Of a stretch of DNA of 64,000 bases, positions 2,419-22,438 are shown one piece after another. The notes under the pieces were generated by a model. That model saw only the letters and a program-made list of their open reading frames with translations, searched no databases and was not told the origin of the DNA. Each line of letters starts with the position of its first letter. Position 1 is the stretch's first letter. The translations under genes were made by a program, and so were the position numbers. The DNA comes from Dinochytrium kinnereticum (taxonomy: Eukaryota; Chytridiomycota; Chytridiomycetes; Chytridiales; Chytridiaceae), in NCBI GenBank assembly GCA_027604005.1, contig JADGJT010000028.1:33657-97656 (forward strand), read 5' to 3'.

Positions 2419-3417
2419 TCAATCGTCCTCATGCTCATCATCATCATCTTCACCACTCTTTTTCTTCCACCGCCGTTCATCCTGGTTCGGATCTTGCGAT
2501 ATCACCTCTACGAAAGGAAATTAAAGATTCAGAATAACGAGAAAAGACGAGAACGCCAGTTGAGTATCTTAAAACTCACTGCTGAAAGATAGTCGCTTCT
2601 CAAATGTTGATGCCGAAAATGAATCCGTGCCTCCCAACTCATCAAACCCAACAATGCTACAAACGAATAATCCATACAATAAGATAAAGATCAAAATATG
2701 AGGCAGCGACGATTAAAACCTCGAAAAAGATGAAACATAATTGAGAAAAGAAAGATATCAAAAAACCAACCGATCCACCGCAATCCCTTTAATAAACGCA
2801 ATAACGCAGGGCAAAACCTGGACTTTCAGTCTCTCCACAAGGAAAGGGCATTTTTCCACATCAATCCTGACGAATCTGGTACGGTAATGTTTCCTAGTGA
2901 GCCCCTAAAACGAACTTCAGCAAATAGCCCCTCAAAAAAGAAGTCCTCACATCCAAATGCTTGTGAATGATCTGACACCTCCGGAACTCTTTGTGATAAA
3001 AATGCACAACAACCTTGTCGGTCGATGTTGTAATCTTCAATATTTCCCTTTCACTGTCAATGTCCTCATAGCTCCCATGGTTGCTGCTCGCCATTTCCTG
3101 AGCCTTCCGGAACCTATTCAAAAAAACCACCAAGTCCTTAGTGGTCCACCTCGTCACAAAACCAGCAAAAGCCGCAAAACAATAGCTCGTCTAGTCCCTT
3201 ACTCAAAGCGTAGCTCATCCATGCGCCTCTCACGGATGTGTGCCATCTGGTTGTCATCGTCCTTCTCCAGCTCCTTGAAGAGCTCCTCCTCATCGAGTTC
3301 AACGTCTGGCTCCGGACTGGATGAAAGGCAGAAGGTCAGCAACGGCGGACAGCACCACGGTGGGATGGGGTGGTTAAGCACTTACATAGGGATTTCAATC
3401 TCTGCTTCGTGCAGCAT
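2419..3417 (-). CDS. TXNDC9 / phosducin-like PLP1-type thioredoxin-fold protein
   Basis: Cytosolic cofactor of the CCT/TRiC chaperonin that helps tubulin and actin folding (family knowledge). The first exon is very short, starting at 3417 and ending at the donor near 3385. The next exon carries an acidic helix (ELFKELEKDDD) and HIRERRMDELR, typical of the family. The thioredoxin-like core reads VVVHFYHKEFRRC, then HKHLD joined to LTRKHYRTRFVRIDVEKCPF and VGFDELGGTDSF, each matching TXNDC9 in order. The Cys of the FRRC segment replaces a CxxC redox pair, as usual in this non-catalytic family. The last exon ends in a basic-then-acidic tail (KKKSGEDDDDEHEDD) and stops at 2419. At least four introns are inferred. 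The start is somewhat uncertain because the N-terminus is shorter than in human TXNDC9. Confidence 0.85.
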
Positions 3418-4140
3418 TATAAAATATTTTGACAATAATAAATAAATAAAGTATCAAGCATCCAGTAACAGCAAAAATGAAATCGGACTTGAAATCCAAC
3501 AACAGTCAACATCAAGACGAATCCATCGTCAAAGTAGAAGATATTATTATACACAAAAAAAACTGGTCCAAGACCTCCTTCAAAGGCATAATAAGAAAGA
3601 TGAAAAGAAGATAAGAAGATAAGAAGAAAAAGAAACCTTCAAGCCGTAAGGGAAAGAGTAGGGTAAACCAGCCTTTGAAAGAATGAAAGAAAAAGAAGGG
3701 TAAAAAAAAATAAATGCATGATTCCTCTTTTTTTGGGATTTTTTGGTTAGTAGGATAAATAAAGATGTGTCAATAAATAATAACGGTAGCCATTTCGGCA
3801 TTTCGGCATGACATGGGAGGCGCGAGCATAAAGGGTGTGCGCTTTGGAAAGTATAAAAGATAAAAATCGGATAGAGTGGAAAAGACGAAGGTTGGAGCGC
3901 GAATAGGTGGGGGATGGAAAAAAAATCATGCAATAAAGACTGGATAAGTGAAAAAACGGATATCGAAAAGATGCCCATCAAAAAAGAAAAAAAATATAAT
4001 TGTGAAAGAGATAACTAGGTCAATAGGCAACCAAATTAAAAGTCCGTGCCAAGCCAGGTGATTCACTACAACAAAAGGAATCGGGCCGAGACGAGCTTGA
4101 CGAAGGGTGAAAGATGCATTGAATAAATTATCGCAAGGAC
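3418..4140. other. Intergenic, no gene seen
   Basis: A-rich spacer between the TXNDC9-like start and the stop of the zinc-finger gene. It should hold the promoter of the former and the 3' UTR of the latter. The ORFs inside are short, low in complexity and unlike any family I recognise. Confidence 0.5.
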
Positions 4141-7061
4141 TAAAAGTCTTCATCATCTTCGTCGTCGTTGTCGTCATCATCATCCTCTCGCCGACTCTTT
4201 CTGCGAGATTTGCCCTTAAGAGCCGTTGTGCGCTTAACTTTACGGTTGCGATGATGGTGTAGGAGATGGTATCTGTGATGAAATAAAAGATGATTGATAA
4301 GCCAACATTCCAAGCAACTTAAGAGAAGAGAAACAATAGGTGGATTACTCACCGAAGACCAGCAGGACTAGCATAAACCTTGAGGCATCCTGGCTCTTCG
4401 CATTCAATTTTCTTCCTGATCCTTCCGCCGCGGACTTCACTCGAAGGGTCTACATTTTCCTTAACATCCAAACTTGGGGACTCATCCGCAACCTCATGAG
4501 CCAATTGTTCATAATGATTTTCGTCATCCACTTTTCGCTTCGTCGGGGTAACAATAGTCATTCTAAATGAGCTGGCAACATCAGGCACCCTAGGCAAAGT
4601 CGGCTCGGATTCCACCGCTGCAAAAGACTCTCCGATAAGGCGCGACTTGCGACCCCTTCGCTTCGGGTTTTCAGAATTAACAGTAACCGCGGGCTCTACC
4701 TTGGTCGGCGTCATGGGTATAACATGGCCGTTCAATGGCTCCACAGCCACAGCAGCAGCAGTGAGCTCTTCAACGTTGACTAAATTCTCTGAAAAAACAC
4801 TGAAAGCTTTCTGATGCTTGCCCAACCCTAATCCAAGAGCACTGGTATAGAGGCTGTAATCCTCAGGTTCATCCTTAGTTTCAACATAGAAGGTATCATC
4901 CGGGTCCCTGCCGTCCTGCCCGTCATAATCCACAAGGTTCAGCAGGTCCTCATCAACCGTATCCGCAGTTTCGATAGCAGTCACGGGTGACGCCGAGCCG
5001 TCAACAGGGGAAGCCACGACATCGACAACGCCACTTGTCCAAGGAGCAACATCGATCGGGTTGCAATAGTCTTGGGTTAAGTTCTCAATTCCAGGGGCGG
5101 CATCGGAAGAGTTCGACAACACAGTGACAAGTGAAACTAGGGAGAGGTTGGCTTCCTCATTATCGCCGCAGACGGTAACCGGGGATGAAAGGGTAAAATG
5201 GCCATCGTAAGAGCCAACTGCGGATGACAGCTACGTTAGCAAGGTGTCGCTCTTTCCGCAAAATCCAAAAAGCAACTTACATGGGGAGCCGTTATCATTA
5301 GTGGTGTCGGGAGTGAGCACATCCCAAAGAGCGTTAGAAGCCCTGCTTTCGTCAGCAATTCCAGTCGCAGCCCCCAAACTCCATTGATCCTCAGACATAT
5401 CCAGCGGGTTTAAAAAAAAGGGTTGAACGACGTTGGGATCCCAATCGGCCATATTGGTAGGCGAGGGGGACGGGGAGATGATATGCTCGCCAATAGTACG
5501 GGAAAAGGAAGTCTTCTTTGCTGATTCCTCTTCTTCAACAGGAAAGAGATCCGCTGAGGGAGAAAAGTTTATCTCGGAGGGAGTGGGTCCCCTTGACATT
5601 GGACCCGTCATGGGTGGAGTGAGCGGTCTTGACCCGAAATCTACATACAGGCAAAGTCAGATGAAAAAGAAAAGCAGAAAAGCATATTTCTAGAGGGGTC
5701 AACCAACCTTTGAAAGCTGAAGGGTTGGATGACAACTTGCCCAAGTTCTTAAGCTTCTCGGCGGCCAGCGCCAGCTTGAAGTGCTTGCTTGAAGCCTTGG
5801 TACCCACAGGGAGGTTGGTCTGTGACGCGGCCCTTCGTTGGTGCCTGCTAGTGACATGCTTGAACCGATGATTTACAGGAGTCAATGGTGACGAGTCATC
5901 ATCACCATCCGGAAAATAGACGGCATAAGACGACCCAGGAAGCGAACGCCGACGGTTTGTGAAGCGGACAGGGGTGACATTTGTTCGAGGACTCTGGGTG
6001 CTGGTGACAGCCCAGTGTTGCGAGCAAGGTGTGTCTTGGGAGGCGGAAGAGTTGGACCCCGGGGTGGTCACCGTGGTTTTGATAACTGAAGGCTGAGGTG
6101 GCGGTAGCTTGGACACGATTCGAGTGGGTGCGCTGCCGTGGTGGTTCGAGAACTGCGCCGCGTTTACCGCCGTTGCTGCCAAAGCCGAGAGTCCCATTGC
6201 CGCGGTGGCTGGTGCCCCAAAGTGGGCCTGCTGGTTGTGAACGGTAAACTCGGCCATTGTGAAGCTGGAGCCGCAGCATTTCACGCAATCACTGACTGGG
6301 CCTCCTGGGTTGGGAGATGCGGCCCCCTTAGAGGCAGCCGATCGACGGGCAAGGTTTCTAAAGAAGAGAGGGAGGTCAGAACTGATATCATCTGATGGGG
6401 AGGGGAGGGCTCTCGCGTATGATCCTAACAAACACCAAAACAATCTATCCCAGCCCAAGCATCCGCCATCCCCTAAACAACCAAAGCATCTGGACAGTCC
6501 AGTCAGTAGTACCCTTTATCCTCCTGCAGCCTCCGTGGCCTCAACAGGCAGAGTGCCAGAGGTGAGACGACGGCGACAGCGTCATGCTCCAGAGCGTTTG
6601 CAACGGACCACGTCATGAGGGTCGTTGTTTACGGACAGAAGAGAAAAAGGCGGGTGGACAAAACTGAGCCAACCAAGAAAGAGAGGCCCCAAAGAGAAAT
6701 TCGAAAAAATTCCAATGCAAAAGGTAAATATGATACACTCTGCACGCATCGCATCGCTGGCGACGGACGGGACTGAGGGGGGGGAGGGACAACGTGAACG
6801 ATCGCCTGGTGCTTGTGCTAACGGCGACGATAGGGTGATGTGGGGTGCAACTGGGGCAGGGTATACTCACATTGGGGTGGGGCGAAGCACTTGGGAGCAT
6901 GCAGCTTTGGGGAGATTGGTGATGTTGGAGGGACGCGGTCTTGAAGCCGACGGGCGGCTAGTCATCTCCTGCTTGGCTTGAGTCTTGACTGGTCCATCGG
7001 AATGGACAGCGAGAGCCTGCTTGGTGGTGCGGCGCGATCCTCGTTTCGGGCGGTGCACCAT
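4141..7061 (-). CDS. C2H2 zinc-finger protein with two widely separated fingers (SFP1/JAZF1-like layout)
   Basis: Probable nuclear DNA-binding regulator. Exon 1 (7061 to about 6871) starts MVHRPKRGSRRTTK, a basic stretch that could be a nuclear signal. A roughly 510-nt intron with a strong pyrimidine tract ends at 6358. Exon 2 then encodes CVKCCGSSFTMAEFTVH..H, a C-X2-C-X12-H-X4-H finger. A long Ser/Pro/Thr-rich middle with acidic patches follows across introns near 5700-5650 and 5280-5230. A second finger near 4390-4280, CEEPGCLKVYASPAGLRYH, is completed across an intron. The protein ends in a basic run (KGKSRRKSRR) and an acidic tail, stop at 4141. One finger near each end, with KVYxSPAGLRYHLLHHH, resembles the SFP1/JAZF1 class. 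Orthology to SFP1, and so a ribosome-biogenesis role, is only a suggestion. Confidence 0.75.
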
Positions 7062-15215: not shown

Positions 15216-16349
15216 TTACTCCTCAAGGTCTGCTTGAATCCCCGCAGCGTTTCTGACAACCCACGCCCGCACGTCTGCGTCTGCGTCGATGAAAACGCAA
15301 GGGGCCTCCACTCTGAGATCAGGTTCTCCCTTGATTTTGATGCAGATCTCATACGCATGCCGAATTGAAAATATCTCATTATAGGTGTCCTGCAATGCAT
15401 TGATGGTCCTGTGATCTTTCTTCGATCGCCAGTGTGTTGCATCGATGGTGGCGAACACCTCCCCAATCCAAGTTGGAGGGCCTGAGGACTTGCCAGTGCC
15501 ACCTCGGGGAATGACCCTCCCCGACACATCCGGTACGGAGATCAACTCGCGAACGACTCGAGTTAGGCCCTCACCTAAGGATATGACAGCATCTTGACGG
15601 ATAGCGACAGTAACACTTGTAATATTGGTGCGAGGCGAGACGGGACGGACATGGTGGATGGTAAACTTGACAGGTTCTTTGAGTCCGAAGATTGCTTTAT
15701 CGATACCGACCCTCCATTCAACTTTTTCGTTCAATCCGGCAATCATCACACCAGTATCAGCACCTTCTCCTCTTAAAACGGTGGGCACATCGATTCTGGG
15801 GAAATCAACTGGCTCCACAACCCTCTCTGTCTTGATGGTCGACCCAAAAAGTCCAGGAGCCAGACCAACCTCAGCCTCCAGCTTGTAGTTCACTCCAATC
15901 GCATCTGAACCATTCTCAGACCACTCTGTGGAAAGCGAAGGCGGAAGAGAAGCAGTGATCTTTTCGGAAAGGGTGAATTCGAAGGGGAATGAGTGGGTGC
16001 CTGCTTTGAGGGGTACTGATCGGTCGCTCTTCTTCTTGGCATCTGCGCTTGCAGGGGCCAAAAGAATCTTTGTTTGCTCAAGAATGACTTTCTTCGCCTT
16101 CTTTGCGTTGATGAATGCGCCGTGGGGAGGTGATGCTTGTAGTTGCGGCCTCCACTCTCCATTGCCGGAGATTGAGGCAGCCAAGTCCCCCAGCAGGGTG
16201 ATCTTGATGGAAGCAATTGAGACGCTCCTTGTAGCCTCGAATCTGACAATACCGGAGACGGTGACAACGGGGGTGACGCCCAGGTAGCCATGGAACAAGC
16301 TCTTTGAGCCGTCAACGGGCTCGATCGTGAGGTCCTCCAACGTTGGCAT
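15216..16349 (-). CDS. Arrestin-fold protein (alpha-arrestin-like)
   Basis: A single exon of about 377 codons from the ATG at 16349 (MPTLEDLTIEP) to the TAA at 15216. The frame stays open upstream and offers another ATG at 16535 (MILSKESY). I prefer the downstream start because family similarity begins there. The first half looks like the arrestin N-domain (VSGIVRFEATRSVSIASIKITLLG, then PLKAGTHSFPFEFTL). The second half fits the C-domain (KTERVVEPVDFPRIDVP, GLKEPVKFTIHH, TSVTVAIRQD). Such proteins act as adaptors in endocytosis or membrane-protein turnover. I see no PPxY motif, so direct binding to a NEDD4/Rsp5-type ligase is not supported. The gene is divergent from the NLR-like gene and convergent with the gene to its left. 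Confidence 0.75.
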   Translation of the reverse strand: MPTLEDLTIEPVDGSKSLFHGYLGVTPVVTVSGIVRFEATRSVSIASIKITLLGDLAASISGNGEWRPQLQASPPHGAFINAKKAKKVILEQTKILLAPASADAKKKSDRSVPLKAGTHSFPFEFTLSEKITASLPPSLSTEWSENGSDAIGVNYKLEAEVGLAPGLFGSTIKTERVVEPVDFPRIDVPTVLRGEGADTGVMIAGLNEKVEWRVGIDKAIFGLKEPVKFTIHHVRPVSPRTNITSVTVAIRQDAVISLGEGLTRVVRELISVPDVSGRVIPRGGTGKSSGPPTWIGEVFATIDATHWRSKKDHRTINALQDTYNEIFSIRHAYEICIKIKGEPDLRVEAPCVFIDADADVRAWVVRNAAGIQADLEE

Positions 16350-16533
16350 GATCTTGTTTGTGTGTGTGACTCCAGACACTGCCCCAAAAAACAAACTGGA
16401 AAGGGGATTGTCACAGATTTTCACGGAGGTGTCGATAATGCCTGATACTGGCAGCTCCTGGCAATAACGTAACAGGAATCCACCAGCAAGCTGGAAGAAC
16501 ACGCGCCTCAAGTAGCTCTCTTTGGAAAGGATC
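16350..16533. promoter_or_regulatory. Divergent promoter / overlapping 5' region, arrestin-like and NLR-like genes
   Basis: Only 184 bp separate the preferred start codons. The upstream in-frame ATG of the arrestin-like gene (16535) and the ATG of the NLR-like gene (16534) share one CATG palindrome, so the transcripts almost certainly start within or overlap each other's 5' sequence. Confidence 0.5.
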
Positions 16534-19500
16534 ATGGGTGGGAAGGGCTCAAAGACCGCTAGGAGGGGTCGTATCAAGGTCAATCCGGAATCGCTTCAGC
16601 GGCAACCTTTAAAAGGGAGTGAAGATGGGAATCGAGATCTCGCACCAATAGATGTGGACACACGAGGCTCTGAGGCAGTCAGGCGGAAAAGCTCTCAGCA
16701 AGTCTCGAATCAGCTTTCTCGAAATAACACGCATGCATACTCCAGCTCAAAGTTTCCTGGGGGTCCTGGGGGTTCGACACGAAGCTTCTCCATGCAACGA
16801 AATTCAATAGAATATAAAGCCATCGATTCGAATTCTAAACTTTCAATGTCAGAGATGGACGAAGTGGATACGCCGCTTCGACAGTTTTTACTCAATATTG
16901 GCCTCCCAGTCGTGAGTGCTTTAATTTTACAAAGAATTACCTTGCACTCATGGCTATATGTTCTAAGAACCTTTATCACCCAGCACTATCTTAGAAGTTT
17001 CCGTCTCGAAGGATTAGAGGCAAACGCGAATGATTTGAACACTTTAGTAGAACTGGATGACTTTTCTTTAAACGCATTGCTTCTGGAAATGAACATCAAA
17101 TTAGTCCACAAAGCTGTTCTAGTCTCAAAGATTAAAGCACTGAGATCTGGTGCGGCAGCCATCTCTCCTCAATCAGGACGGCTAAGAGCAAGCGATGGTT
17201 CCCTTATGGTACTGCAACATACAGGTCCGATGGTTGCTGTTATACCTGCTCCTTTGGAATCTAAAGACATCGAAGAGATCCAGCCTCCGCGGCACGTTTC
17301 AGTTGCCTCACAACCAATTGTAAAGAGCACAACAGACTTATCCAAGCAGGTATATATAGTTAACTGAATGATCGCTAATGATTGCTTTTTTTTTTTTTCC
17401 TCAGAATTCTGACAGTCTCGCTATATTACCGGGAAAAGCATCCGACACTCATTCTTACACTCATGGTCGTCGTGGATCCGACGTGTCGCTGAAGCCAAAG
17501 GAACGTTTTTTCTCACATTCCAATCTCGGAGGTTAATGATTTTTCTGAAGTTATGCAACTGACCATTTTACAAAATAGCCTCCGACCCCGTGAGAAAGCT
17601 CTATGTTCCAAAATGGTCTTGCCGACAACAAAAAGTCGCCCATGATTTCTTTATAAGGTACCGTTGCGTAGATGGCTTGATTAAGAGAAGTTTTATAGTT
17701 ATCGGGCGGAGGCTGATCAGAGCAGCGCTGAGAAACTAGCTTTGTTGCTAGAAACCAAATCAAAGCATTGCTTTTTTGATAAGAGGTGCCTTGTGGATGG
17801 CATGGATTGGGAGCAGGGTTTCTTGAATGGCCTCGAACGATCACGATATATTATTCTCTTTTGCTCAGAGGCCGCGCTTGAAAAGGTTAAATCGGCACAT
17901 ATGGTTGAAGATAATATGCTTTTAGAGGTACTTGATTTATTTTCTATTCATGACTAATATATTTCTATTATTTTCCTTAGTGGGAGCGAGCACTTATATT
18001 GAGAGATAAAAACCAGGTTTTTGTCCAGCCTCTCCTTGTTGCAGCGTACCAAGATATTCAAGTCGGGACAAAGATATCCAAGGCTCTCTTGCCTTTCAAA
18101 GCCTTCGACTTGAGTGAATTTCCGGATGAAGTAATGTTTCACCACCTCAGCACACGAACCAGAACCATTCGAGAAATTCTCGCAGAAGTCTTTAAGATTC
18201 AAGGCATTCGTCTTCTCCCGGACGAAGTTGAAGGGTAAGAATGTACCGAGCATAAGTTTTATTGACTGAATAATTCAACAATAGCACTATCCCAAAGCTC
18301 CTGGATGGATTATCTCGGTTACAGGGTCAGGCAAAAAATCTTAACGATCCGAAAATGGAGTTAGTAGAGCTGACCTTAACAGCCCGAGAAGCGAAGCAAC
18401 TAAGAGACTGGCTTCGCCCACTCAACATGGAGGATGAGCGATCCCGTCAACGAAGACGACACGTGGCCGGAACCCGACAATGGCTTTTAAAGCAAGTACT
18501 GGATTGGGCTCTTGACCATGCCGAAGGAACAACGCGCGTCTTATGGTTGCGTGGTGCATCGGGACTAGGAAAGTCAGTGATGGCGGGATACATTGCAGAT
18601 TCCCTTCAATCCGATCATTTATTGGGAGCGGCTTTCTTTTGTAAGCACGATGATACCGAACGTAACGACCCTAAAAGAGTGGTGGAAACTCTTGCATATA
18701 GTCTCTCAAAATGGAGCCCAAAGTTTGGTAGAATGCTGCTAAAGATTCGCGAAGAAGAGCCAGAGCTCCTCCAAAGGGGCGCAGGCACTACAAGGTTCAC
18801 GAAGTTATTGCTAAATCCATTGGTAACATTGAATGAGATGGGCATGCTTAAACCTGTTGTTCTTGTTGTCGATGCGCTCGATGAGGTCGGCATTAAGGGC
18901 CAACGTAGCGACTTTTTGAAGATATTTGCTCAGGACTGCTTACGATTACCCCCATGTATCAAGCTTTTTGTTACCAGCAGGCCCGATCTAGATATTGTCG
19001 ACGCGTTTAGACAAATGAGCCCGATCAGCATTGAGCCATCTCAGGAAGATAACCTCCACGATCTAACAAAAGTAGCAGAAAAGAGACTCATCGGCGAGGT
19101 AAAGCTCCCACCGGATCACTCCAAATCAGTTGCGAAGCGTCTTGCAACAATGTCCGAAGGGGTGTTCATATGGCTTAATCTCGCGTTCTACTGCTTAAAA
19201 GAGCGGATTCCCGCCAACGCGATAGAAGATGAGCTGGTGTCTTTAGACCAGATCAATGCGATTATTGACAGACTTCCTATGGGACTCGACGAGATGTATA
19301 AGCAAACTTTGTCGTCTCTATACCTCTCGGGTCCAGGTGGGCGACCCAACACCGATGTGATGAGGATCCTTGGTGCCGTTGTATGCCTGCGAGAACCCGT
19401 CACAGAGACCGCGTTAGCCGAGCTCATTGGCATGGAAATAGCACTTTTAACATCGACGCTACGAAATTCTCAAGCCGTTTTAAATGTTTCCGTCAGAGAC

Positions 19501-22438
19501 TCGAAAGTACGGGTGATACACAAGTCTTTGAAAGACCATCTCACGAACCCAACGCGAAGCCATAGGAGGTTTCGTGTGCGAGTCACTGAGGAGCATCATC
19601 GACTGGGAGAATCTTGTATCAACATCATCCTTCGGAGTCTCCAGCGTGGCATGGCGGCTATACCCGAATCACTTAATTACGCCTGTCGATATTGGGCGGT
19701 TCATATTGCTGGGTGTCTCGGAACCGCGCCATCACTCTTACGTCTAATTGATCGTATGTGCTCGGAGAAACTTCCAGAATGGCTTGAAGCGTTAAGTTAC
19801 CTGAAGGCCTTGGATAAATTTGCCGTTTCTTCGTTAAGGTCACTGGTATCCTGGTACCCCCACAGTTCCATCGCGTCACCTGTAACACTTGCAAAACAAT
19901 CTATCAAAGAAGATGCAACAAACACAGTGTCTCCACAACCATCACCACCTCGCCTTAACGGTCCCCGTGCAACAAGAACTCTGTTAACGGACCTTTTGCG
20001 CCTGGTTCTCGAATTCCGAGCCCCTATCGTCGAGTCCCCTGAAGACGTTTACAGATCCGCTCTCCCATTTTGCCCATCACGATCCGCTCTATGTCAAGCT
20101 TACAGCCAGCGATACCAAGGGGTTCCATCTGTCTATCGAGGACGTGACGCAAGGTGGGGACCATGTTTATTCAGTTTAGGTGGACAAGGAAGGGATGACA
20201 GCGCACCTGTGCTCTGTGTGTCGATTGCGTTAGATGGGTCACGATTTCTCTCCGGATCCGCGGATGGGTCTTTAAGGCTCTGGTCGCTCGAAACGGGTGA
20301 GACTCTGAAAGTGTTTGAATGGGATGCTGGCGATTCGCCTATTCCCAAAACTCGTATCGAGGCTACGGCTATTGGTGTTGGTGAAGGCAATAGTACGCTT
20401 GGTTTTACCACTAGCGATGAAGGGAGTCTAGTACTATGGTCATTCGAGCTGGGTGCGCCACTTCGACAAATCACATTAGACGCTTCTTCCTTACCTGAAT
20501 CATCCGACGATGCATCGACTTCTACTAGGGAATCTGAGGAAGACTGGAGAGACGCGGATGATCAATCTCTACCCGTTTTGTCTGGGAGGATCTCAAAAAT
20601 GATAGGATGGGCCTGCATGACCTCTATTGTATTTTCAAAGGACTCGAGAGTTGTGGTCGTTGCGGGGGATGAGAAGATTGCATCAGTATCATTGGAGACT
20701 GGCAAGTTTTTGTGGCTTCGACGTGAGCCAAGGTGTCAGATTGTCTTAGTTCGAGCCGTTTCACATGATACAAGGCTAATTGTTGGAGCAGGAAGGTATG
20801 CGCGACCTAGTGGTTTTTCTGTAGAGTCGTTTAAATTTCTAGAAACTTACCTTCTTCCTTTTTTTTTATACCTACAGCGCGATAAGAATCTTGGCAGCAG
20901 ATTCTGGTGTACCGCTTTCATCAATGGAGATAACCAACCATTTAATCACTGCACTTGCTGCAACTACCGACGGATCCCTCATTGCTTACGGAAGCGATGA
21001 CGCTTTAATAAGGCTCATAAATTCAGAAGATGGCACAACCCTCTGTACCCTGTCAGCGCATCATGGTCCCATAACATCCCTCGACATCTCTCCAGACGGT
21101 CGCAAAATCGTTTCAGCCTCATCCGATGGAACAGTCCGAATTTGGCTCTCTATCCCAGCCCCAAAGTCATCGGAAGCCTCTCGAAATCAGCCAGCAACCC
21201 CCACAGGGACAAGTCAAGGGAGACAAATATCTATATCATGTGAGCCAACGTTTCTGAGTGACATGCTAGACCCGCCGACGAATCCGTCCAACGTAGATTC
21301 ACCGCTGACTACCGAGTTTTCTTCGAGACTTGAAGGAGCTGATAATCTTTACGGAACTTCATCACCCGGAAACCTTGGGACGCACATTACGCTTGAAGGA
21401 CACACTCAGGGGGTTACCTGTGTTTCAATTACTCCTGATGGTCATCGGGTTGTTTCGGGATCTATCGACGGAACTATCAAGATTTGGTCTCTGGATACTC
21501 TTGGAATGGCAGAACGAAGCGCTGAAAGCCATACAGACATCGTACTCAGCCTAGCTGTTTCCAAGAGCCACCTAAAACCTGAATCACCAAACTCATCTTT
21601 CGATGGTTCACTTGATCAAATTCCTTTAACTAACTTTAAGGATGGGTCTGCAACTATCTATCATAAGGGCAGTATGGAGTTTCATCGAACATCTGTAACA
21701 AGCAAGCCATCAGACCGCACATCAAATCCACATCCATCTCCTCCAGAAAGAGTATCAACCCCATCGGCCCAAGCAAAGCCGGTGGCTACGGATCCAGCCA
21801 TACAAGAGTATTCAGAGTTTCTGGCGTCTGGGTCTAGAGACAGAACAGTGAAGGTTTGGAAGATGTCCACCGGAGACCTTTTATGGACGCTCAAAGGACA
21901 CATGGCCCCCATTTACTCAGTCGCGATCCGACCTGACCGTAAAATGGTGGCCTCAGGATCTTCGGATGGTGTCATCAAGCTTTGGTCCACAGTCACTGGA
22001 AACCTCATTAGAGACTTTTATCATGGAATCGAATACGGTGGCAGAGTCAAAAATCTCGAGTTCACTTTTGACGGCACGCGTTTGCTGTCATGGGTGGAGG
22101 ACAAAGTATTGGTTTGGCACATTCCAAACGGGATCCTTGAGAACAAAATTGATGGCCACGTTCGTCTCTGCTCAGATCATCGCCACATCTACGTGCAGGA
22201 GGCTTCTGGAACAGAAAAGGTGCTGGACACCTTCACATTTATAGAGGTTCCATCACAAGAGCAGACAGCGATTAGCGTCCGCGACATAAGAATTGTTAAT
22301 GGTTGGGTGGTAGATTCGGAAGGCAAGAGGGTGATATGGTTGCCCGAGGAGTTTAGGGGGATGGCTATCAGTGATTACAGCGGGAAGCATCTTGCTCTAT
22401 TTGGATACAAAGGTCGAGAGTGTTTTCTTCATTTGTAG
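16534..22438 (+). CDS. NLR-like receptor: myristoylation site, SAM, TIR, NACHT, WD40 repeats
   Basis: Eight exons join in phase: 16534-16911, 16984-17349, 17405-17531, 17579-17657, 17699-17927, 17981-18234, 18285-20795 and 20878-22438, giving 1834 residues. The N-terminus MGGKGSK fits N-myristoylation (Gly2, Ser6, Lys7). A SAM domain lies at about residues 115-182, restored only when the 72-nt intron is removed. A TIR domain spans about 310-440 (HDFFISYR, then FFDKRCLVDG), with LLEWERAL placing Glu393 where SARM1 has its catalytic Glu. The NACHT module shows Walker A GASGLGKS (568-575), Walker B VVLVVDALDE (669-678) and TSRPD (about 708). From about residue 1115 come roughly seven WD40 blades (GSADGSLRLWS, SASSDGTVRIW, GSIDGTIKIWS, GSSDGVIKLWS). 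By family analogy the WD40 part senses a ligand, NACHT oligomerises and TIR/SAM signals, perhaps by NAD+ cleavage at a membrane. That function is inferred. Confidence 0.9.

Follow-up and report, generated by a model that had tools for sequence, protein, structure and literature searches.

SARM1 carries ARM repeats and two SAM domains ahead of a C-terminal TIR domain. Its tandem SAM arrangement and the requirement of residue E642 for NAD+ hydrolysis are described in PMC7282519 (here, as for all sources cited, the statement refers to excerpts of the paper), and a SARM1 group of TIR domains is recognized in metazoans (PMC7075850). In amphioxus, TIR-NACHT, TIR-NB-ARC-WD40 and TIR-SAM proteins have been reported (PMC2575513). 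For fungi, a 2014 survey recorded no NOD-like receptors (NLRs) in chytrids and linked the HET domain to TIR (PMC4986451), a link also reviewed in PMC12881547, and another study describes TIR domains in NLRs of Chytridiomycota and SAM_Ste50p as a new N-terminal class of fungal NLRs (PMC9815663). Here we describe a gene in a 64,000-nucleotide stretch of DNA from the chytrid Dinochytrium kinnereticum (contig JADGJT010000028.1; hereafter the window) whose predicted product places a SAM-like region, a SARM1-class TIR domain, a NACHT-class nucleoside triphosphatase (NTPase) and WD40 repeats in one chain behind a myristoylation-type start (Table 1). A literature search, with most subscription papers outside it, found no report of a SAM-TIR-NACHT-WD40 protein. 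A sequence-only reading of the window had taken TIR to be rare in fungal NLRs, and this rarity is less marked than stated: besides those already in print, TIR-NACHT relatives were retrieved from Phlyctochytrium, Quaeritorhiza, Nowakowskiella, Entophlyctis and Rhizophlyctis. With TIR NLRs of chytrids already on record, the discovery is less of a surprise than it first seemed. What does appear new is the combination of a SAM-like head with a SARM1-class TIR, kept across genera.

The TIR domain matches TIR_2 (PF13676) at 50.3 bits, or 47.6 bits in a longer piece, with a cut-off of 28. Profile comparison matches it to SARM1 and places Glu393 at SARM1 Glu642. Furthermore, the TIR domain of the ortholog P0002 (residues 271-460) was modelled at a pLDDT confidence of 79-93, and its fold matches that of the SARM1 TIR. 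By sequence and model, the domain is thus assigned to the SARM1 class and carries a catalytic-type glutamate. Matches to the PADLOC candidate model PDC-S66 (29.7 bits, plus weaker TIR models) and to an NCBIfam retron-TIR at chance level (11.3 bits of 600) hold no functional information.

Behind the TIR domain, NPHP3_N (PF24883) scores 98-101 bits, over its cut-off of 24.8, and NACHT proper (PF05729) reaches 24.5 bits, below its cut-off of 26.7; the segments GASGLGKS and VLVVDALDE are the Walker A and Walker B motifs. WD40 (PF00400) scores 153 bits over five stretches. A purpose-built repeat model, made from the chytrid proteins P0003, P0004 and P0007 and biased toward detecting repeats in those proteins, finds six repeats at domain E <= 1e-4 and, once the limit is relaxed, ten segments, of which some score close to zero or negative. 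The protein has the domains expected of a fungal NLR, namely a central NTPase of the NACHT class, C-terminal repeats (WD40) and an N-terminal effector or signalling domain (TIR_2). The sequence-only reading had named a SARM1-like TIR domain and a NACHT domain with both Walker motifs, and these profile results agree with it. As to its count of about seven WD40 blades, WD40 is clear, the number is five, six or ten by method, and more than seven blades are probably present.

Conservation was measured against orthologs from Phlyctochytrium planicorne (P0001) and P. bullatum (P0002), with identity taken over gap-free pairs; gaps are frequent in the linkers and toward the end of WD40, in its final stretch. 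P0001 shares 157/168 residues (93%) of the TIR domain (303-470), 160/171 of NACHT and 212/292, 54/61 and 147/209 of three WD40 stretches, with low spots at residues 13-105 (13/68) and in the SAM-TIR linker (25/92). The corresponding values for P0002 are 148/168, 146/171, 217/295, 55/61 and 150/209. Each ortholog shares 48/74 of the SAM region (residues 108-182), and the WD40 of both aligns with that of the window protein blade by blade.

The coordinates of the gene model are exact. The spliced frame opens with the ATG at 16534, closes with the stop codon at 22438 and contains no internal stop, its seven introns (41-82 nucleotides) are all GT-AG, and an in-frame TAG lies upstream at 16513-16515, the next ATG being that at 16534. 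Retention of six of the seven introns would break the reading frame. Six junctions (junctions 1 and 3-7, after residues 126, 290, 316, 393, 477 and 1314) sit in sequence continued by both orthologs; junction 2 (after residue 248) lies within a divergent linker, where the comparison is uninformative. The single in-phase, eight-exon gene of the sequence-only reading is supported, and so is its myristoylation-type start: MGGKGSK fits the M-G-X-X-X-S/T rule of PMC11467418, a start expected by composition in about 1% of cases, and the M-G-X-X-X-S form recurs in P0001 (MGGGSSK) and in a paralog of the same genome (MGCGAS). N-myristoyltransferase (NMT) is encoded in this genome. This recurring acylation-type start, in one ortholog and one paralog, appears new, and lipidation is predicted from it.

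Table 1. Features of the SAM-like/TIR/NACHT/WD40 gene, with positions in the window.
Feature	Position	Strand	Basis
Whole gene, SAM-like/TIR/NACHT (NPHP3_N class)/WD40, 1,834 residues	16534..22438	+	Spliced translation, GT-AG introns; orthologs P0001, P0002
Eight exons	16534-16911, 16984-17349, 17405-17531, 17579-17657, 17699-17927, 17981-18234, 18285-20795, 20878-22438	+	
MGGKGSK, residues 1-7, N-myristoylation-type start (M-G-X-X-X-S)	16534..16554	+	Ortholog, paralog, motif rule (PMC11467418)
SAM-like domain, residues 112-180, interrupted by intron 16912-16983	16867..17145	+	Conservation; P0002 SAM_1 match; helices in P0002 model
TIR domain, residues 311-470, exons 4-6	17638..18211	+	Pfam TIR_2; SARM1 profile matches; P0002 model fold match to SARM1 TIR
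Glu393, aligned with SARM1 Glu642	17925..17927	+	Alignment; invariant in 8/8 TIR rows
P-loop NTPase of the NACHT class (Pfam NPHP3_N), residues 540-710	18469..18981	+	Pfam matches
Walker A, GASGLGKS	18553..18576	+	Sequence
Walker B, VLVVDALDE	18859..18885	+	Sequence
NACHT-WD40 intermediate region, residues 711-1110, no Pfam family	18982..20181	+	0 families; 66-70% identity to orthologs
WD40 propeller region, residues 1118-1745, two poorly conserved loops (1406-1480, 1546-1625)	20203..22168	+	Pfam, WD model

Compared with SARM1/TIR-1, the protein shares the TIR class (by profile and fold), the position of the catalytic-type glutamate and the presence of a SAM-like domain alongside the TIR. It differs in having at most one SAM-like domain and a TIR domain in mid-protein, with NACHT and WD40 behind it, and no ARM repeats were found in residues 1-538 at E <= 1, where only TIR_2 and HI_0552 were listed. 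The HNWD proteins of Podospora (HET-E, HET-D, HET-R) share the effector-NACHT-WD40 plan, and HET is distantly related to TIR (PMC4986451). The window protein has a true TIR in place of HET, an additional SAM-like domain, diverged blades and orthologs kept between genera; we rejected membership of the HNWD (HET-E) group, as residues 1-538 contain no HET domain (TIR_2 and one chance match) and the repeats are not near-identical (mean identity 0.39). The Chytridiomycota TIR NLRs belong to the same phylum and have the same plan, and the excerpts name no SAM or lipid anchor with TIR, SAM_Ste50p being a separate class (PMC9815663). In amphioxus the same parts occur in separate proteins, with SAM apart from the NLR parts and NB-ARC rather than NACHT in the WD40 protein (PMC2575513). 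Plant TIR-type NLRs (TNLs) share a TIR on an NTPase switch and differ in their leucine-rich repeat (LRR) sensor, and RPS5 and PML5 share an acylated N-terminus but carry a coiled coil, not TIR (PMC11467418). Assignment to SARM1 proper was rejected for the differences given above, and so was assignment to the plant TNLs or to nephrocystin-3: the C-terminus is WD40, with neither LRR nor TPR among the best 25 of 49 families. PMC7159879 was set aside because its SAM is radical-SAM.

We favor, with moderate confidence, the reading that this is a conserved chytrid NLR in which WD40 senses, NACHT assembles, the SAM-like domains assist clustering and the TIR domains cleave NAD+ at a membrane. Directly supported are the anatomy, the conservation and the TIR class only. 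At rest, the protein would be an ADP-bound monomer that myristate, together with the basic stretch that follows it, keeps at a membrane. The WD40 propeller might bind a ligand or a host protein that has been disturbed, upon which NACHT would exchange ADP for ATP and form a wheel. The SAM-like domains could then pack together and bring the TIR domains close, and the clustered TIR domains would cleave NAD+. This would either produce a signal, in some form of cyclic ADP-ribose, or deplete NAD+, and the thallus or zoospore that is infected would die.

Several results weigh against this reading. Retention of intron 1 (16912-16983, 72 nucleotides, within the SAM region) would keep the frame and read open (open reading frame 16516-17367), whereas a SAM core requires its excision. 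Therefore, the splice in the SAM-like region rests on its GTGAGT and CAG ends and on the contiguity of P0002 across this position; in P0001, the database model carries additional residues immediately upstream of the junction. A common fold and glutamate are no proof of activity, enzyme activity of the TIR domain being a prediction, and the second TIR family, PF01582, has no match anywhere in the genome. The acylation-type start occurs in one of the 54 retrieved proteins (many of them partial or non-TIR) and is absent from the chytrid TIR-NACHT models P0003, P0004, P0007, P0018 and P0020, and the P0002 model begins elsewhere. In its public model (P0012), the paralog lacks MGCGAS and is joined to an upstream methyltransferase; because the methyltransferase frame closes with its own stop in the genome, we think that this model is a fusion artefact.

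As to the SAM assignment, no SAM family match was obtained for the window protein with three different cuts or for P0001 by family search, and the SAM_1 match of P0002 (17.3-19.0 bits, model positions 8-63 of 64) is below the cut-off of 23. Searches of the PDB returned symplekin (four sequences) and one ribosomal protein for a profile of the region (SAM in 0/5 rows), and topoisomerase VI and symplekin for the single P0002 sequence (0/7 rows). Comparing the profile with eight SAM stretches from this genome, of which six are half domains, gave 0.8% probability (E 0.068). None of these three comparisons speaks for SAM. Nevertheless, because the P0002 match is full-length albeit sub-threshold, helices are present and the region is conserved between divergent linkers, we regard the spliced SAM domain of the sequence-only reading (residues ~112-180) as quite probable, not proven. 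The helices, five at residues 37-102 as expected of SAM, come from an AlphaFold2 model of a P0002 fragment with five alignment rows (block pLDDT 48-63). Structure predictions were made on two-domain fragments (P0002, P0007), and the fold-comparison rows for P0002 cover the TIR part (residues 280-463).

Among other explanations, the TIR domain might be a homotypic adaptor rather than an enzyme, in which case further TIR proteins of this fungus would be recruited and would carry the signal. The genome offers possible partners, with four further TIR_2 loci, two related TIR stretches on contig C202 and a helical-looking TIR protein (P0024). We nevertheless consider this unlikely, given a glutamate invariant in 8/8 rows, a SARM1-class fold and a TIR domain 93% identical to that of P0001. 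Less probable again is a conserved housekeeping STAND protein of the zoospore, in which myristate and UNC119/PDE-delta would lead the protein to the flagellar membrane, as for nephrocystin-3, to sense NAD+ or motility state and not invaders. In its favor stand the assignment of the NACHT to NPHP3_N in Pfam, the myristoylation of NPHP3 and its transport by UNC119 (PMC9266639), the presence in the genome of NMT and of GMP_PDE_delta-family matches (C85, C315), and orthologs with very similar TIR and NACHT domains. However, NPHP3_N is also found in the non-flagellate fungi Mycena, Aspergillus and Suillus, so the name is uninformative on cilia, and WD40 stands where NPHP3 has TPR.

The sequence-only reading had suggested self/non-self recognition, and a diversifying allorecognition receptor like the HNWD genes would have the same plan of TIR-like effector, NACHT and WD40. 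Mean internal WD40 identity is low, at 0.39 over 6 repeats, versus 0.81 over 4 in P0007 (a truncated protein) and 0.62 over 12 in Quaeritorhiza P0004, although P0003 resembles the window protein in this respect (0.42 over 12). The orthologs align blade by blade, and when the genome was searched with the SAM-TIR part, nothing came up but the gene's own locus and two TIR stretches at 37-39% identity. Such a receptor is very unlikely. Because conservation is strong and the blades are diverged, the sequences point to a conserved cue rather than recognition between strains, and defence against parasites that attack the chytrid seems the more likely role. The last alternative, a mistaken splice fusing two neighbour genes, is very remote: TIR and NACHT exons do meet at the sixth junction, but both orthologs cross it (EVEG-TIPKLLDGLSR in the window; EVEGAIPKLLDGLSR; EIEGTIPKLLDGLSR) and TIR-NACHT proteins occur repeatedly in other chytrids.

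TIR enzymes connect animal, plant and bacterial immunity, whereas in fungal NLRs it is the distant HET domain that is more familiar. A true SARM1-class TIR, conserved on an NLR of an early-diverging fungus, would allow a direct test of NAD+-cleavage signalling by fungal NLRs, and the same protein could reveal whether an NLR SAM clusters TIR domains as in SARM1.

A tree of the chytrid TIR-NACHT proteins resolves two clades with support 100/100, one with a DNMLLEW TIR (including the window protein) and one with an NCKKEL-type TIR. Its 17 rows comprise the window protein, the paralog and 15 of the 54 proteins retrieved; the root is at the midpoint and three long branches are flagged. The motif rule used to trim the rows did not set the same start in all of them, with a different one in P0015, P0016, P0021 and the paralog at least. 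Head domains vary inside both clades between SAM-like and PB1-like. Besides the SAM-like head of the window group, they include a half SAM_1 match in Nowakowskiella JEL0407 (P0013; 12.1 bits, E 0.26) and PB1 matches in Quaeritorhiza P0022 (21.3 bits, cut-off 23.6) and, weakly, Entophlyctis P0007 (13.5 bits). P0003 and P0004 have no PB1 match, and the P0007 head, modelled at low confidence (pLDDT 23-42), has no PDB match. Because every head call is below its cut-off, head swapping in front of TIR is only a hypothesis, with the PB1-like heads as a lead. Perhaps chytrid TIR receptors are two-tier machines, in which an exchangeable, head-to-tail polymerising head (SAM or PB1-like, swapped in both clades) precedes the TIR domain, is driven by the NACHT wheel and, in Chytridiaceae, is fixed by myristate to a membrane, possibly that of the zoospore flagellum via UNC119/PDE-delta. 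We judge this rather unlikely; if true, the receptor would be a natural counterpart of hand-made SAM-TIR fusions. A EukProt protein, P0006, has a DNVLLEW-type TIR at the C-terminal end of a large chain with membrane-spanning-looking stretches, which suggests that this subclass extends beyond fungi.

The paralog (L029, C16:55500-65400, minus strand, start 6999) encodes a TIR-NACHT-WD40 protein of 1,321 residues in which no SAM was seen; its MGCGAS start is of myristoylation and palmitoylation type. It shares two exact blocks, of 81 and 1,213 residues, with P0012 (HDU67_002199, Dinochytrium kinnereticum). Searches with the window protein itself retrieved no D. kinnereticum entry, perhaps because its public model differs or is split. 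On C202, adjoining genes (L030 ~4700-5630 and L031 ~3700-5050) carry related TIR domains (DNVLLEWE in L031), and behind the TIR in each come leucine-rich stretches resembling LRRs by eye. L034 (C111, minus strand, ~2860-4880) has a TIR followed by Sel1-like repeats by eye, and its apparent start, MADEKT, is not of the myristoylation type. P0024 (D. kinnereticum HDU67_005464, 1,000 residues) and P0025 (P. planicorne, 1,083 residues) combine a TIR (61-62 bits) with a helical-looking N-terminus and a coiled-looking C-terminus. Their helical part has no Pfam match and resembles ARM/HEAT repeats by eye, so these two species may have a separate protein of SARM1-like plan. The GMP_PDE_delta-family matches (L042-L044), kin of PDE6D/UNC119, are possible flagellar carriers of lipid-anchored proteins.

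ARAGORN found no tRNA gene. Among nine neighbouring open reading frames there is no sign of a defence cluster; an ion channel, an arrestin and a Syf1 splicing factor score over cut-off, PH and C2H2 fall just under, and four have no match. The divergent arrestin-domain gene lies at 15219-16349 on the minus strand, with a further in-frame Met at 16535. If it starts at the Met at 16349, 184 bases separate the two gene starts, and a shared promoter is possible.

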